This document shows positions 1,384 through 8,030 of a stretch of 24,681 nt of DNA, in pieces; the stretch's first letter is position 1; each line of letters begins with the position of its first letter. Origin of the DNA: a virus. The stretch covers positions 1 through 24,681 of the IMG/VR virus record IMGVR_UViG_3300033149_002972; one strand, written 5' to 3'. The notes under the pieces were generated by a model. It made no database searches and was not told the DNA's origin. It worked only from the letters and a program-made list of their open reading frames with translations. Both the position numbers and the translations under genes were made by a program.

Positions 1384-2289
1384 GTGAAAAAAGTAGTACG
1401 AAGATCGCGCATCGCGCATCGTGCATCGTGTACAATCAGCCCCGTGTTTGGCACTAGGTGGAATCTGGTCGATCTACTTGGCTTCTTCGCTCGGTTCAAA
1501 ACCGCCCACGAGTCCGCGGAACCGCCACCCAAGAAAGCCGACGAGATGGCCGAGGGCTCTCCGGAGTTCCGCGTGCACTGGATCGACTGGCGCAAGAAGG
1601 TCAAGACCAAGAGCCGCGGAAAGCGCAAGGGCGTCCGGAAGTGGCCGAAGATCAAGGGAATCACGCTTCACCAGACAGCGGTCAACATCACCGACCCTGA
1701 GAACTGCCTGAACATTCCCGTACACGGCTTGGTGATGGACGGGGGGCCGGATGGCGAGGATGCGACGATTGTCCTGATCCACGACCCGACCGACTACATG
1801 TACCACGGCAACGGGTTCAACCGCGCCGACATCGGCATTGAGGTTAGTTGTCGCGCGGCCGGCATCGAGGATGACCCCGGCACTGAGAAGGATGAGAGCA
1901 GGTGGACCCTATGGCTCCCGAGCTCACTACGCGGCAAGGGCGACCCGCGCGAACATGCGTCAGAGGCCACCGATTCCGAGCTCGAAGCCTGCCGCCGTCT
2001 CATTCGGTATTACACCGAACAGGCCCAAGAGAACGGCGGGGAGATCGAGTTCATCCACGCCCATCGCCAGGCCACCAAAAACCGCGTCAGCGACCCAGGC
2101 TCTCGCATCTGGAACGCTTGCGGCGAATGGGCACGCGGGGCACTCGGCCTCAAGGTGGGCCCGGCTGACTTCAAAATCTCGGATGGCAAGGCGCTGCCCG
2201 ACGCGTGGACCGGCCGGCCGAACGGTATTCGGTACAACTGGAAACGCGACGGGCGCATTGCACCCAGCGATGTCGATACGGACGCCTAG
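1384..2289 (+). CDS. Endolysin, N-acetylmuramoyl-L-alanine amidase (Amidase_2/PGRP-type)
   Basis: The longest frame gives 301 residues from GTG 1384. The catalytic domain spans about residues 60-250. A zinc-ligand motif ITLHQTAV (H96) follows the first strand, IGIEVSC (151-156) is a core strand, and HAHRQATKNRVSDPGSRIW (225-243) supplies the second histidine and the Asp of the SDPG motif. These match amidases that cut the amide between muramic acid and the stem peptide. The last 50 residues show no recognised wall-binding domain. The start is uncertain: residues 1-20 are encoded by a 7-bp tandem repeat, and GTG 1444 or ATG 1546 are alternatives. There is no signal peptide, so holin-dependent release is likely. 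The gene is alone on plus among minus genes, and its TAG overlaps the portal stop. Confidence 0.82.
   Translation: MKKVVRRSRIAHRASCTISPVFGTRWNLVDLLGFFARFKTAHESAEPPPKKADEMAEGSPEFRVHWIDWRKKVKTKSRGKRKGVRKWPKIKGITLHQTAVNITDPENCLNIPVHGLVMDGGPDGEDATIVLIHDPTDYMYHGNGFNRADIGIEVSCRAAGIEDDPGTEKDESRWTLWLPSSLRGKGDPREHASEATDSELEACRRLIRYYTEQAQENGGEIEFIHAHRQATKNRVSDPGSRIWNACGEWARGALGLKVGPADFKISDGKALPDAWTGRPNGIRYNWKRDGRIAPSDVDTDA
1406..1433 (+). repeat. Four tandem 7-bp repeats at the endolysin 5' end
   Basis: Units are CGCGCAT (1406-1412), CGCGCAT (1413-1419), CGTGCAT (1420-1426) and CGTGTAC (1427-1433). The first three are identical apart from one base and the fourth is degenerate. They lie in the divergent region, in or just upstream of the endolysin coding start, and run directly into TACAAT. 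They could be an operator or a slippage-prone tract. Confidence 0.5.
1431..1436 (+). promoter_or_regulatory. Possible -10 element (TACAAT) for the endolysin
   Basis: TACAAT matches five of six bases of the sigma-70 -10 consensus and lies 7 bases before GTG 1444, an in-frame alternative start. No -35 consensus is seen 17 bases upstream; the space is filled by the 7-bp repeats. If active, the protein would begin at GTG 1444 on a leaderless transcript. Tentative. Confidence 0.2.
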
Positions 2290-4808
2290 ACCACAAGCAC
2301 GAAGTTCTCGGCCGCCCTCATGGCCGGCGCATCCGCGATGAACCCAGGCCAACACCTGCAATTGATGGGCTCACCGGGAAGCGCGCCGCCTAGTGTGGGA
2401 GCGCCCGCGGCCCATGTGAAGACCTGATTTTCGATCTCCTCATGCTCTGGGCGAACATCGGCGTCCCCCTGCGTGATCCACCGAAACGTGTCCACGCCTG
2501 CAGCGCCTGCGCGAATTCGGTTTAGGTCAAGGTTCAGCGTGCCCGTCTGGTCGTCCGCGATGAGTCGCGCGTGAGCGGGGAGATGAACCACGAGTTCTCC
2601 AACGCTGCTCGGGACACCCGTCGCGGCGAATGACTTGGCGGCCTTCGCAGCCGCTTCGTCTGGGTCTTGGCCTGCGATCTCACGTGCGAGCCAGATTCCC
2701 AGGCCTGCGGCCACACCGCTGCGGAGTTTGCCCATGAACTCGACGTTTCGGTCCACAAACTCGCCCTCGGCCTCGATGGCTTCTTCGTTGACCACGACTG
2801 CGACCTCGACCGCCTCGCCATCCGCGTCGGATTCGATGGCCTCGATGCTGGTCGCGCCCTCGGTTGACCCCGCCCCGGGCCTGTCGGTTCCGGTGATGGC
2901 TACGCCAAGGGTCGCGGCGAGTCCCGCGAAGAACTCGTCTGCATGCCCATCGCTCACGATGTCAGCCGTCTTAGCTGCATCCTTCGCGATGTCAGTGTCC
3001 GTGTAGCCGCGATTGACTCCCGCCTGTACCTGGCCGATGGCCTTCGTGATGCGTGCTTCGTTGCCCGAGCGGATGGCCGGGATGAGATGCCGGCGGACCT
3101 GGACCATCGCCACTGCGTTGAGTTGCTGGTACTGCTTGCCGAGCGCAGTTGCGGCCTTCTCAGGAAACGGCTGCGTTAGAGGGTTTTTTTTTGACGGAGC
3201 CCGGTCCGCGTGCGCATCTTCGCTCGTTACCTCTCGGCGCCCGAGCTCCATGACCTCGGATAGGCTGACCTGTCGACGGCTGCCGAATTGCCAAAACGGG
3301 AGGTTCCCGAGTTGCATCTGCCTGGTGAGCGTACGTGTGGCAACGCCGAGGCGCTTGGCGGCCTCCCGCACGTCCACTACGTCGTCAGGGACGGGCTTCT
3401 GCGACGGCTCGGCCGCGTCGGGTGCTGGGTCGATGTCCGAGACCGCAGCGAGCGCCCCGGAGCCCCCAGGAGGGGAGCCTGTCATCACGGGCGCGGCCGG
3501 AAGCGGCACTTCGACCGTCGCATCCTTGATCGTTCCCTCGTCCTCAAGCCGCGTGCGAATCTCGGAAACGCTCATCGAGGCCATCGAGAAGTAGATTTGA
3601 TCGGCCTGAGCGTTTGTGAGCCGCGTCTGGGCCATCTCCTGGTCGTTCGGCTGCCAAAGCGGATTCCATTCGACCTGCCACTCGGACGGGATGTCCATGT
3701 CCGGGTTGCGTCGCGCGCGGCCGGCGAGGATGATTTCTAGCAGTCGGTTGATCACCGGAGTGAGAACGAGCCGCTGTTTGGCGTGAACGTGGTCATACCA
3801 ACTGCGAATTTCGCTGTCAGCGCTTGCTCCGAGCCCTGACGGCTGCTCGCCTAGGATGACCGTTCGCGGCATGTCCGTTGCGCGTACCAGCGCGTCGACA
3901 AACTTGGCCACGAGTTTCTCTAGCCCGGTCACGTCCCGCTTCATCTCCCCGGCGGAGTCATTCTTGTCCATCGCCAGGATATGAAGGTTGTCCATCGTCA
4001 TCCGGATGGTCTCGATCATCCGTTCCAACTGCTGTTTGCCCTTGGCGGACCCGAGCAGCTGATCTCGGAAGCCATCAAACTGCATCAATGGAACGCTGAT
4101 GTTGTGCGCGATGCTGCGGCTGTACCCCATGACCTCGCCAAGCTGCTGCAGTTGGGTTGCGACTCGCTGAAGCACACTTGGGCCCCAGCCGTTGTTCCGG
4201 ATGAGGAACGAAGGCGGGACCTTGACGCCATCGATGCGAATCACGCGCGTGTGGTGAACCTTGCGCGTCTTCATCTTTCCGACCGTCGGCGTGATCTCGT
4301 AGTGGATGGGCTTGCGGAAGGACGCGGAACCGAGTCCGGAGCCGAGGCGAGAAGGCTGCGCGAAAGTCGACTCGACCACCTGCAGGCCTGAAAACCCGCG
4401 GATATTCTTCATGTCCAGCGGCTTGTCGTAGGTCCGGCCGTCGTTGATCGCCATCACGATAAGAGACCCGCCCATCAGGCGAGCCCATCGCCAGCCGTCC
4501 GCGACCGAGTTGAGTGCATCGAGGTCTTCGAGCTCGCTCATCACGCCGTTCCAGTTGAAGTCCCGATCCTCGCCCGTGAGTGCGAATCCTTCGCGCGTGG
4601 CGTCGTCAGGAAGTCGGTCGATGATGCGCGACGCGAGCGCGTCCTGCTCATACCAACTCGCCAACTCTTCGGGCCCGAGCCGCGGCATACGCTGGAAGAA
4701 TGTTCCGCTCGACTTGTCCGGGGGGCCTCCGAATCCGGTGACCACGTTCGCGTAGCCATCCGGGCGGATAGCCGCGGAGCTGTTGTTGTCCTTCTTTTCG
4801 TCCGTCAT
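2286..4808 (-). CDS. Portal - HTH - Mu gpF-like head morphogenesis fusion protein (840 aa)
   Basis: Three parts are visible. Residues ~30-430 are a DUF1073-type portal (YEQDALASRIIDRLPDD; GEQPSGLGASADSEIRSWYD), the ring through which DNA enters the capsid. After a Pro/Ala-rich linker, residues ~478-522 read as an excisionase/MerR-type helix-turn-helix (DVREAAKRLGVATRTLTRQ, then LPFWQFGSRRQVSLSEV). Residues ~555-840 end in a Mu gpF signature (FRWITQGDADVRPEHEEI ... GEPINCRCWPGF; H789, C817, C819), a minor head or ejection protein. Typical DUF1073 portals are about 450-500 residues, so this is much longer than usual. Codons 539-542 contain an A9 run (3184-3192) from which slippage either way would end translation within about a dozen codons. 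The stop shares CTAG with the endolysin stop. The portal and gpF calls are firm; the HTH role is unknown. Confidence 0.88.
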   Translation of the reverse strand: MTDEKKDNNSSAAIRPDGYANVVTGFGGPPDKSSGTFFQRMPRLGPEELASWYEQDALASRIIDRLPDDATREGFALTGEDRDFNWNGVMSELEDLDALNSVADGWRWARLMGGSLIVMAINDGRTYDKPLDMKNIRGFSGLQVVESTFAQPSRLGSGLGSASFRKPIHYEITPTVGKMKTRKVHHTRVIRIDGVKVPPSFLIRNNGWGPSVLQRVATQLQQLGEVMGYSRSIAHNISVPLMQFDGFRDQLLGSAKGKQQLERMIETIRMTMDNLHILAMDKNDSAGEMKRDVTGLEKLVAKFVDALVRATDMPRTVILGEQPSGLGASADSEIRSWYDHVHAKQRLVLTPVINRLLEIILAGRARRNPDMDIPSEWQVEWNPLWQPNDQEMAQTRLTNAQADQIYFSMASMSVSEIRTRLEDEGTIKDATVEVPLPAAPVMTGSPPGGSGALAAVSDIDPAPDAAEPSQKPVPDDVVDVREAAKRLGVATRTLTRQMQLGNLPFWQFGSRRQVSLSEVMELGRREVTSEDAHADRAPSKKNPLTQPFPEKAATALGKQYQQLNAVAMVQVRRHLIPAIRSGNEARITKAIGQVQAGVNRGYTDTDIAKDAAKTADIVSDGHADEFFAGLAATLGVAITGTDRPGAGSTEGATSIEAIESDADGEAVEVAVVVNEEAIEAEGEFVDRNVEFMGKLRSGVAAGLGIWLAREIAGQDPDEAAAKAAKSFAATGVPSSVGELVVHLPAHARLIADDQTGTLNLDLNRIRAGAAGVDTFRWITQGDADVRPEHEEIENQVFTWAAGAPTLGGALPGEPINCRCWPGFIADAPAMRAAENFVLVV
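3184..3192 (-). other. A9 homopolymer (slippage-prone) in the portal fusion linker
   Basis: The minus strand reads TC followed by nine A and then CCC. The 840-residue product needs exactly nine. With ten A the frame reads SKKKPSNAAVS then TGA; with eight it reads SKKTL then TAA. Either slip yields a portal-HTH protein of roughly 543-549 residues lacking the gpF-like part. The run sits precisely in the linker between the HTH and gpF-like regions. Confidence 0.6.
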
Positions 4809-4856: not shown

Positions 4857-6170
4857 CTACATGTAGGCGAGGATGCTCCCCACCCGGTCCTCATCGTCCA
4901 GCATCGTTTCGGTGAGCCCCCAAACGAGTGCGTCCATTCTGTCAGGGGACGGCAGCCCAGGCTGCCACCCGGTCATCTGGTGCTCAAGCTTCTCTAGTCC
5001 CTTGGTGCCCACATGGTGAACCCGGCCAAGTTCGTATAGTGCCGCCACCGGCTCCGCGCGCAGGACTTTGCCGCGTGTCGCACGAACTGACTTGTAGCTA
5101 ATGTCTCGGTTCACGGCCCGAATCACCGACTCCACCATATCGCCGCCATTATTAATTTCAGCGCAAATGCAGTCGGCCTCATAGAAGCGATAGAGCTGCA
5201 CGGCCCTGGACGCCCACTGCTCCGGCGTGCCCTTCATGGTGGCGTCTTCGAGCACGTAGCCGTGATCGTCTTCATCGACTCCGACCACGACGATTCCGGT
5301 CTCGTCGCTGTCTTCGTTCGATGTTGCGGCCGGGTCAATGGCCACGACGATGCGCTTCAGGTCTGGCTCTTCGCTGACCCGGTTGGCGTGGATGTTGTCG
5401 AGGTTCCAGAGGAAGGCCTCGGAGTCCTCAAGGATTTCGCCATAGAGCTCCTGTAGGCCGCGCCGCGTGCCCTCGAAGTTTCGGCGCAGCGCTTCTTTCA
5501 CCTTCTCTTGCAGGTGGACGTTATCGTATGTCGATGCGCGCGTGACCACTGTGTCTTCAAGCGCCTCAAGGTCGCGCAGGAACTTCCGCGGCTTTGGCGT
5601 ACTCGTGATGATGCAGCGGGCCCAGCCAATGCGAAGCGCGGGCTCGATTATTTCCCAGTACATCTCTTCGGGCTTCGGCCAGGCCATGATTTCATCAGCC
5701 CAGACGAGCGCAGCGTTCAGGCCGCGGCCGGTGTCGGGCCTGTCCGCTGAGACCACGCGAGCTCGGACTCCATTTGGCCACGTCAGAATTCCATTCCCGG
5801 GCTCCCAGATGGGGCGGAAGCTTGGCTTCGCAGTCGCCAGGATTCCCGAGCCCGGGTCTTCAATCATCGTGTATCGCACGTTGTTGAAGGTCTTGGCCAC
5901 TAGGCCAATCTCACCTCGTCTGATTTTAGAGCGGTCCTCAGCAATGTGATTCACCCACTTGGCGCCGCCATAGGTCTTGCCCCCGCCTCGGCCAACGCGC
6001 ATGTTCCATCGTCGCCAGTCCCCGTCCGGCATCTGCTGGTGATTGAGCGCCCATAGGGGCCAATGGTCGATGATGGCTTGCGCCTCTTCATGCTTCAGCG
6101 AGCGCGCGAAGCTTGCAATCTTGGCCGGGCTGAGCCGTCCGAGTTGCTCGATGATTTGCGGGCTAGTCAT
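4857..6170 (-). CDS. terL: Terminase large subunit (DNA packaging ATPase/nuclease)
   Basis: A 437-residue packaging motor that pumps phage DNA into the prohead through the portal and cuts it. The N-terminal ATPase shows Walker A GRGGGKT (60-66), Walker B LVWADE (155-160) and the coupling motif TSTPKP (189-194). The C-terminal RNase H-like nuclease shows acidic residues in VVAIDPA (D279), CAEINNGGDM (E338) and DRMDALVWG (D413). Order, spacing and length are normal for Terminase_6-type subunits and nothing looks broken. ATG 6170 overlaps the small-subunit stop by 8 bases. The portal fusion follows after 48 bases with no terminator, so packaging genes are expressed together at the end of the late transcript. 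Confidence 0.95.
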   Translation of the reverse strand: MTSPQIIEQLGRLSPAKIASFARSLKHEEAQAIIDHWPLWALNHQQMPDGDWRRWNMRVGRGGGKTYGGAKWVNHIAEDRSKIRRGEIGLVAKTFNNVRYTMIEDPGSGILATAKPSFRPIWEPGNGILTWPNGVRARVVSADRPDTGRGLNAALVWADEIMAWPKPEEMYWEIIEPALRIGWARCIITSTPKPRKFLRDLEALEDTVVTRASTYDNVHLQEKVKEALRRNFEGTRRGLQELYGEILEDSEAFLWNLDNIHANRVSEEPDLKRIVVAIDPAATSNEDSDETGIVVVGVDEDDHGYVLEDATMKGTPEQWASRAVQLYRFYEADCICAEINNGGDMVESVIRAVNRDISYKSVRATRGKVLRAEPVAALYELGRVHHVGTKGLEKLEHQMTGWQPGLPSPDRMDALVWGLTETMLDDEDRVGSILAYM

Positions 6171-6645
6171 CTTCGGGCTCGCCCTTCCCCTCCGGGAGGA
6201 ACGCGCTAAGCTTCTCGATGAGAACCTGATTTGGGTCGACCTTCACATCCTCGCCGGTGTCATCGTCAACCGCGTTCGGGCTCTTGGAATAGAGCTTTCC
6301 GTATCTCCGGTAGAGATACTCCATCTTGATCTTGATGGGCGTCTCATCGCTCATCACGTCCTCGATGATGTCCGAATGATTCCGACACTCGGCTTGGTCG
6401 AGCGCCTTCACGAGCTCCATCTTCAGCGTGATTTTCTCACGGTCCCCACGGGTGTACTCGCGCCACTCCGTTCTTCCCCGGTAAAGCCATGATTTCCATG
6501 TCTCCTGCGGGATGCCCAGGCGCCCGCGCGCCACGTATCGGAAGTTGCCCTTTCCTACGATTCGAGCCGCTTCCTCGATTATCTTAGGGGTCAGGGTGAG
6601 CGCGTTGCGCTCTGCTTTGCGGCCGTCTGTCTTGGCTTTGGCCAC
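6163..6645 (-). CDS. terS: Terminase small subunit (DNA recognition)
   Basis: A protein of about 160 residues from GTG 6645, just after the tail-fibre stop at 6648. A longer start at ATG 6687 would intrude into the fibre gene and has no ribosome binding site. The N-terminal part is basic, with a helix-turn-helix typical of small terminases (GKGNFRYVARGRLGIPQETW followed by KSWLYRGR). The middle is a charged helical oligomerisation-type region, and the tail is acidic (GKGEPEDD) as is common for large-subunit contacts. It recognises the packaging site and loads the motor. The 8-bp overlap with terL and the matching architecture make the call good, although small terminases are divergent. Confidence 0.8.
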   Translation of the reverse strand: MAKAKTDGRKAERNALTLTPKIIEEAARIVGKGNFRYVARGRLGIPQETWKSWLYRGRTEWREYTRGDREKITLKMELVKALDQAECRNHSDIIEDVMSDETPIKIKMEYLYRRYGKLYSKSPNAVDDDTGEDVKVDPNQVLIEKLSAFLPEGKGEPEDD

Positions 6646-6647
6646 GG

Positions 6648-8030
6648 TTAGAATACGCCCTTCACGCTGAGCATCCCGTCCACCCATTCGACGCCAGCGG
6701 GTGCGCCTGTTCCGTACGCAGCAAATGCAACGTCGAACGTGCGAGGCCCACTGGCCGGCAGCGAGTACCTAGCCCTAAAGGTGATCGTCTTTTCGTACGC
6801 GTTCGGGCGCGCGCCGACAGGCGGGTTGGTCACGTTCGTGTTCGTGCTTGCCAGGTAGATTTCACTCGTCTTAATCACGGTCCCCCCTGCTGTCTGATCC
6901 TGGAACTCAATCTCGAACGTCGTGAGTACGTCATTGATGTTCCGAACCGATGCGGTGAACTCCAACTCAACATCTCCAGCAAACTTCGGGTCGTTTGGAG
7001 TGCCCAGGCTGATCGAGTGCTTGACCGTCATCGGAGCCGTGTTCTGGCTTCCCGATAGCCCGTCGACGCTGTTCGCAACGAAACCGTACTGACTGTCATG
7101 CATGCTGCGCCACTGCGACCCGCGGCGGAATCTAAGCAGCCCGGTCCCGAGGTTCGGGTACATGTCGCCATCTAGACCTGAGCTCGGGTCCGCGTCCTGA
7201 GGCACCATGCGGAACGCCGCCCGGACAGGTGTCGTCGTATCGCCCTCTGCAACTACGCCATAGGCATCGATCGAGCGACCCCACACCCCGGCCGTGCTGT
7301 TGCCGAAGCCAAAAACGCCCACTTGGGTCTCGTCCGTTGGGCTTCCGCCTGCGAAAGAGTTAGTTCCGGCGACGCCACGGCCTCCCACGCTCCGGGTGTC
7401 GCCCCATACGCCAAAGCTTCCAACTGCGACGGCGGCCTGGCCATACACCCCTGCGAAGGTGGCCGCGTCGGTCTTGCCGTGCACGCCGTGGTTACCCGTG
7501 GACTCGGCATCGACTGCCGCAGCCGTGGTCGAGTCGGCGTCAATGCATACGCCGCCAGCCTGTGCATCCGCATTGATGCACGCTCCCGAGCCTGCGTTGA
7601 CCGCGTTCACGGTATCCGAAGCTCCGTTGTTCGTCGCTGTGATCGCGGAGTGATTCGCGGCAATGACAGCCATCGCCTGTGGCGTTGCGTGGTTCGATGA
7701 GTCGATCGTTATGACCGGACCGACCGCGGCCACCGTCGCGCCGAGCGTCGAGTATGCGATTCGCACTCGGCCCGAACTGTCAGTCTCAACAACGTGGGCA
7801 TCTAGAGCCGCCAAATTCGAACCGAAGCTCAGCCACTCGACCCATGTCGAATACGCGTTGAATTCAAAGTTCGCATAGTCGGCTACGATCCCGGTCTCAG
7901 GTGTGAACCCAACGCCTGTATTCGTCGGTGCCTGAACCTTCGTGGGCGAGCCGGCCCAAACATCGGGCCCGGCTGGATAGTTTACAGTCTGCGCCCAGAT
8001 GGGCGGGTTTCCGGTTGGTCTGGTTGCCAT
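6648..8030 (-). CDS. Tail fibre / receptor-binding protein with beta-repeat region
   Basis: A 460-residue protein. The N-terminus (NPPIWAQTVNYPAGPDVW) and residues to ~75 look like the virion-attachment domain of phage appendages. Residues ~130-265 are repetitive, with glycine turns GVHG, GVYG, GVWG, GVFG and GVWG, expected to form a beta-helix or trimeric fibre shaft. Residues ~300-460 form a globular beta-rich tip (for example FEIEFQDQTAGGTVIKTSEI) that could bind the receptor. No chaperone or lyase motif is seen. It follows the last baseplate gene, the usual place for a fibre, and has the best ribosome binding site in the area. The role is inferred from architecture and position. Confidence 0.75.
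   Translation of the reverse strand: MATRPTGNPPIWAQTVNYPAGPDVWAGSPTKVQAPTNTGVGFTPETGIVADYANFEFNAYSTWVEWLSFGSNLAALDAHVVETDSSGRVRIAYSTLGATVAAVGPVITIDSSNHATPQAMAVIAANHSAITATNNGASDTVNAVNAGSGACINADAQAGGVCIDADSTTAAAVDAESTGNHGVHGKTDAATFAGVYGQAAVAVGSFGVWGDTRSVGGRGVAGTNSFAGGSPTDETQVGVFGFGNSTAGVWGRSIDAYGVVAEGDTTTPVRAAFRMVPQDADPSSGLDGDMYPNLGTGLLRFRRGSQWRSMHDSQYGFVANSVDGLSGSQNTAPMTVKHSISLGTPNDPKFAGDVELEFTASVRNINDVLTTFEIEFQDQTAGGTVIKTSEIYLASTNTNVTNPPVGARPNAYEKTITFRARYSLPASGPRTFDVAFAAYGTGAPAGVEWVDGMLSVKGVF

Follow-up and report, generated by a model that had tools for sequence, protein, structure and literature searches.

The IMG/VR virus record IMGVR_UViG_3300033149_002972, analysed as a whole stretch of 24,681 bases with 61% G+C (the window), carries a single 840-codon frame in which a DUF1073-type portal core is followed by an excisionase-type winged helix-turn-helix (HTH) domain and then by a MuF/gpF-like head protein. 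The frame sits on the minus strand, and the plus strand at the same place is full of stops (Table 1). The three-domain fusion is real, the HTH recurs in 15 distinct portals, and the HTH/MuF junction coincides exactly with a run of nine A residues (A9). On balance, we slightly favor an account in which dnaX-like slippage at this run would provide a mixture of portal-HTH and portal-HTH-MuF subunits, whose HTH-bearing tails would bind DNA in the head. The more general proposal that slippage sets the number of accessory domains on a portal ring, with an excisionase-type winged HTH that tethers DNA within the capsid, is put forward more tentatively, as a possibility of nearly even standing.

The sequence-only reading of this stretch had placed the portal, the HTH and the gpF-like domain in one 840-residue frame, leaving the strand unstated, and the searches against Pfam, NCBIfam and PHROGs agreed with it. 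The Pfam family Phage_portal_3 (PF06381) was matched over profile positions 2–357 of 357 (E 3.7e-75; 253 bits against a cut-off of 33.8), and the portal family phrog_146 at E 1.2e-98. For the HTH, the NCBIfam model TIGR01764 (“excise”) passed its curated cut-off of 28.8 both with the isolated domain (32.7 bits) and with the full protein (31.6 bits); the match to HTH_17 (PF12728; residues 479–521, E 6.4e-5, 23.6 bits) fell slightly short of the gathering score of 27, which was exceeded in the homologous loci L098 (38.4 bits), L104 (32.7), L116 (29.1) and L103 (28.4). PHROGs placed phrog_66, “excisionase and transcriptional regulator”, at residues 460–557 and additionally reported phrog_324, head morphogenesis. 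The MuF part of the window scored just under the cut-off for Phage_Mu_F (PF04233; E 7.7e-6, 27.1 bits against 29.6) and below that for TIGR01641 (29.2 bits against 39.65). At the same time, its homologues exceeded these cut-offs (PF04233: 75 bits in L098 and 51.3 bits in L013; TIGR01641: 63.9 bits in L174), and the MuF match was full-length in all three.

Chance and a single assembly error are excluded as sources of the fusion, because the same frame is present in L001, a contig from a different metagenome, and the same fused architecture was found in three further distinct phages: L013 (55% identical), L174 (= L175) and L098 (46%). L001 is 99% identical to the window, and its frame is open through residue 763, where the contig ends. 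The suspicion of an assembly artefact, which the sequence-only reading had tied to relatives with separate genes, was dismissed on the strength of L001, L013, L174 and L098.

Both the recurrence of the HTH and the A9 run joining it to the gpF domain had escaped the sequence-only reading. The run was found during a search for an internal start of the MuF part; it is the only homopolymer of at least seven bases in the window, and it is also present in L001. Read in frame, the window gene gives 840 residues, whereas adding or removing one or two A residues leads to a stop after 543–549 residues, leaving only portal-HTH. A run of ten A residues occupies the same junction in L098, where the in-frame product has 801 residues and the slipped products 526–530. 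In its sister L104, the run is again A9, the in-frame product stops at 530 residues (portal-HTH), and one extra A yields a 797-residue fusion. The run is therefore kept between L098 and L104 while the frame differs. Since the MuF frame of L104 has no ATG, GTG or TTG from the upstream stop to a GTG that already lies within the conserved domain, 44 codons in, its MuF would be read only after slippage by +1 A or a −1 shift.

In the non-redundant loci whose G+C content exceeds 0.5, A/T runs of at least nine bases number four. Each of them lies in a portal tail, although portal tails make up 7% of the bases (p 2.4e-5), and each has its A residues on the coding strand; without the G+C limit, 6 of the 12 such runs are located in portal tails (p 7e-5). 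Runs of nine A or T slip efficiently in bacteria (PMC5009743, PMC3711429), and Thermus dnaX provides two products from one frame across a nine-base run with nearby stops in the other frames (PMC5009743). A −1 ribosomal shift would give the same outcome, and polymerase slippage is mildly favored because the search for stimulatory RNA structures gave nothing consistent. One 60-nucleotide slice of the window showed a hairpin, which was dropped, as a longer slice gave another fold.

The excisionase/MerR-type character claimed for the HTH was also upheld by structure prediction. AlphaFold, supplied with a 10-row HTH alignment, gave a winged helix of β-α-α-β-β-α order with a core pLDDT of ~91. The top Foldseek ranks for this model were occupied by mycobacteriophage Pukovnik Xis, RacA-DNA, RdfS and BldC-DNA, with probabilities of 0.99–1.00; entry 4j2n gave a template modelling score of 0.74 by target length at a probability of 1.00. 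The best E value was only 0.012, which is modest because the domain has only about 50 residues. In a profile search with the HTH, BldC was matched at 6.5e-5. The BldC-DNA contacts used for comparison, Arg30, Thr27, Thr29 and the wing residues His46/Arg47 (PMC5859096), correspond in the alignment to R496, T493, T495, R511 and R512 of the window. The wing is basic in 15/15 domains: position 46 is occupied by R, K or H, and a further R or K is found at 47 or 48.

When the window is compared with L013, the rate of evolution of the HTH is as low as that of the portal core and far below that of the linkers or MuF. The two HTH domains are 67% identical with a nonsynonymous divergence (dN) of 0.28, and the portal cores 70% identical with a dN of 0.26, against 26–56% for the linkers (56% for the linker at residues 418–473) and 45% for MuF.

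The domain was described by the sequence-only reading as lying inside the portal ring. This holds for the portal polypeptide and not for the ring fold, since the HTH is located in the C-terminal tail after the core. The portal profile of the window matches the solved portals of Pam3, E217 and Pa193. The C-terminal barrel of the E217 portal projects into the head; the portals of E217 and Pa193, both of 765 residues, were modelled only to residue 528, and residues 529–765 of Pa193 are without density (PMC11042391). By homology with these portals, a flexible tail would carry the HTH and MuF of the window within the head.

The twelve subunits of a portal ring are regarded as identical, and we know of no explanation for how few-copy MuF proteins are counted into the head. 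If the A9 run is slippery, RNA polymerase would slip on it, as at the nine-base run of Thermus dnaX, and one gene would provide a mixture of portal-HTH (about 545 residues) and portal-HTH-MuF (840 residues). The resulting 12-subunit ring would display many HTH domains and fewer MuF domains. As the tails would point into the head, the HTHs on their flexible linkers could contact duplex phage DNA at the portal mouth, and MuF could support the start of DNA delivery in the manner of SPP1 gp7. The portal brings only a few copies of the latter, the model MuF protein, into the head, and of the virions that lack it only ~25% are infectious (PMC6316719). MuF on all twelve subunits would break such a few-copy ratio, and a slippery run placed between the HTH and MuF would restore it. 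A slippery run that switches a portal accessory domain, if true, would be a simple counting mechanism and predicts mixed rings; a DNA-binding domain on the lumenal side of the portal, if true, would be a handle on the holding and release of the packaged DNA end.

A survey of DUF1073 portals, which the sequence-only reading had proposed as a check, revealed an excisionase-type HTH after the core in 15 distinct portals of the loci gathered here: the window clade, L013, L174, L017, L098, L103, L104, L115, L116, L119, L121, L157, L164, L200 and L218. MuF is the next, separate gene in most HTH-bearing loci with enough downstream sequence; the fused cases are the window, L013, L174 and L098. The annotated cultured relatives that were inspected encode portal and MuF in two different genes, in agreement with what had been stated as usual. 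A portal tree of 39 rows, built before L164, L174, L200 and L218 were found, requires five gains or losses of the HTH, at least three of them forced by well-supported branches, and two for the fusion. The L098 fusion, which lies in a separate branch of this tree, evolved independently. HTH similarity follows portal similarity (Mantel r 0.54, p 0.0002), and this correlation points to inheritance with losses in preference to repeated capture; the early suggestion of a captured domain is in line with this, as capture followed by inheritance. The portal cores of L103 and L109 are 81% identical, and a 237-base HTH segment in the former (L103:2853-3090) stands against about 24 bases in the latter (L109:4767-4791).

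Homologues from other sources were sparse. The genome-collection scan gave only L092 (46%, without the HTH, from a Proteobacteria metagenome-assembled genome, MAG) and L093 (29%, Bacteroidetes MAG). A tblastn search with the HTH region for cultured phage portals returned only excisionase/regulator-like or unrelated matches with E about 1 or weaker, and with the L121 portal as the query no full-length HTH-bearing portal was among the matches listed.

Several observations weigh against the slippage and DNA-tether account. The enrichment of A/T runs was tested post hoc, and L098 and L104 are homologous, so that the independent number is nearer three than four. The fusions of L013 and L174 contain no A run, and hence slippage is not needed for the fusion in the window clade. 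For most runs, the 5′ and 3′ flanks fold no better than shuffled sequences. Only 9/15 domains have R or K at the base-reading Arg30 position, so any binding of DNA by the HTH may be unspecific. The HTH of L115 passes only the profile built in the present analysis, and many HTH-less sister phages exist without the domain. The full-length AlphaFold model obtained without an alignment was uninformative (pLDDT 35).

The same facts can be accommodated by a plain constitutive fusion, with both the HTH and MuF on all twelve subunits and a merely incidental A9 run. The frame of the window is open through MuF, and the fusions of L013 and L174 do without the run; however, these GC-rich genomes contain virtually no other runs of such length, the runs recur at the L098/L104 junction in spite of the altered frame, and AAA accounts for just 21% of the lysine codons in the window genes. 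We regard this explanation as unlikely, although it deserves more weight than the others considered here. A homopolymer error in sequencing or assembly, with portal-HTH as the true gene and MuF in another frame, is very improbable: homopolymers are prone to indels and L104 does show the split arrangement, but the same A9 is present in an independent metagenome contig and the L013 and L174 fusions contain no run. Such an error, were it real, would not overturn the slippage model. Similarly little credence is given to the HTH as a decayed or functionless captured domain. Its absence from close relatives, L109 among them, would fit decay, yet the domain is conserved like the portal core, retains its basic wing throughout and is co-inherited with the portal.

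Two further explanations give the HTH another task, and both appear improbable. It could recognise pac/cos or help TerS/TerL to load DNA, like the winged HTH of lambda-type small terminases; the packaging-site and small-terminase roles raised by the sequence-only reading belong here. The fold class is the same, Foldseek rank 16 was 7lwr, an entry titled viral DNA-packaging motor, and the solved winged-HTH relatives bind DNA. The C-termini of homologous portals, however, project into the head, on the side opposite to the terminase, which argues against docking from outside. Homologues of TerS occur in both HTH-bearing and HTH-less phages; because TerS is kept alongside the HTH, the idea of the HTH as a substitute for a lost TerS was ruled out. 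A search of the window for a binding-site array yielded just three short, weak tandem repeats, none of them a candidate repeat array. Terminase docking or TerS replacement is thus unlikely, and contact with DNA inside the head would fit better. Alternatively, the HTH could be a cargo or regulator acting on host or phage transcription, comparable to Acb1 and NUDIX on other portals of the DUF1073 type. Domains of various kinds occupy the portal tail, and portal/MuF-effector fusions have been published (PMC5512222, PMC9503650). The HTH, by contrast, is joined covalently to the portal, no cleavage site is evident, and the passages on effectors consulted in the literature do not include HTHs.

Among known systems, the closest mode of working would be a tethered Xis/BldC-like DNA-binding head on the portal together with dnaX-like two-product expression. 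The portals of Pam3, E217 (gp19) and Pa193 (gp19) resemble that of the window in the core, in a C-terminal tail beyond the barrel and in the E217/Pam3-like neck and tail genes nearby. The annotated cultured DUF1073 relatives inspected have neither a tail HTH nor a MuF fusion, and carry Acb1, NUDIX, a coiled coil or nothing instead. The winged HTHs of the excisionase/BldC/MerR group (TIGR01764, PF12728) share the profile, fold, basic wing and Arg30 equivalent with the window, but they are small soluble regulators or recombination factors, whereas the window HTH is tethered to a portal subunit. SPP1 gp7 and Mu gpF are alike in the C-terminal domain and in adjoining the portal; they are normally separate proteins targeted by the portal to the head interior, while the window MuF is part of the portal polypeptide. 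Thermus thermophilus dnaX likewise has a single open frame that runs through nine identical bases, with stops close by in each of the two alternative frames (PMC5009743); slippage is known there, whereas in the window it is predicted from the sequence. Searches of the open-access literature gave no earlier description of an HTH on a portal or of a portal-MuF slippage site. The portal/MuF-effector fusions of PMC5512222 also bear extra domains on the portal or MuF, but these are enzymes thought to be injected, unlike the DNA-binding-type domain between portal and MuF described here.

Table 1 Features of the fused portal gene and the adjacent terminase genes in the window
Feature	Positions	Strand	Basis
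Fused portal–winged HTH–MuF/gpF-like gene, 840 residues (P0001)	2286..4808	minus	Open frame; same frame in L001
Portal core, residues 48–405, Phage_portal_3/DUF1073, phrog_146	3594..4667	minus	Profile matches
Pro/Ala/Asp-rich linker, residues 431–473, probably flexible	3390..3518	minus	Isoelectric point 4.1
Excisionase/MerR-type winged HTH, residues 474–522	3243..3389	minus	TIGR01764, HTH_17, AlphaFold, Foldseek Xis/RacA/BldC
A9 run on the coding strand, S539-K540-K541-N542, TCA AAA AAA AAC; predicted slippage site	3184..3192	minus	
TAA, stop after loss of one A (543 residues) or gain of two (544 residues)	3176..3178	minus	
TGA, stop after gain of one A (549 residues) or loss of two (548 residues)	3160..3162	minus	
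MuF/gpF (SPP1 gp7-like) region, residues 549–840; Pfam match at residues 746–819 (2352–2573)	2289..3164	minus	
Terminase large subunit (TerL), directly upstream of the portal gene	4857..6170	minus	Terminase_6N and 6C, PHROGs
Terminase small subunit (TerS, phrog_4102), kept alongside the portal HTH	6163..6687	minus	PHROGs, E 7.3e-5

Other modules were observed in the tails of the surveyed DUF1073 portals. The anti-CBASS (cyclic oligonucleotide-based antiphage signaling system) protein Acb1 is fused to the portal C-terminus in L003, L004 and L009, including Pam3, whose portal structure is solved. Among the cultured relatives, it is present in Erebus, RHph_N17 and Pam3, and NUDIX in FP_Brigit. 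NUDIX is common in the surveyed tails (L005, L031, L044, L046, L073, L084), several uncultured phages included, and DUF5872 was found in L060. Additionally, L008 (MW202455) encodes a MuF protein with a C-terminal ADP-ribosyltransferase domain (L008:4395-5870). Effector domains on portals and MuF proteins have been published before (PMC5512222, PMC9503650).

The portals L133 (L133:4772) and L134 (L134:4106), which have no HTH and are 74% identical to each other, contain A9/A10 runs in the tail before a lysine-rich C-terminal module of ~45 residues, and slips there would remove the module. An A run of the same kind is located in the L128 portal tail. The runs in L133 and L134 may perhaps reflect a general way to mixed portal rings. 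L013 and L174, in turn, have an internal ATG at the end of the HTH with GAGG 5 nucleotides upstream, which could be an alternative route to free MuF or could be incidental.

The source of the window is an uncultured E217/Pam3-like contractile-tailed phage, and the record is probably a fragment. Its neck and tail genes (DUF3383, a neck terminator, a weak match to the E217 collar and DUF4054) resemble those of E217/Pam3-type contractile-tailed phages. The gene order is tail, TerS, TerL and portal, and none of the window genes was recognised as encoding a capsid protein. The end of a convergent amidase-like gene on the plus strand (1384–2289) has a few bases in common with the stop end of the portal gene.

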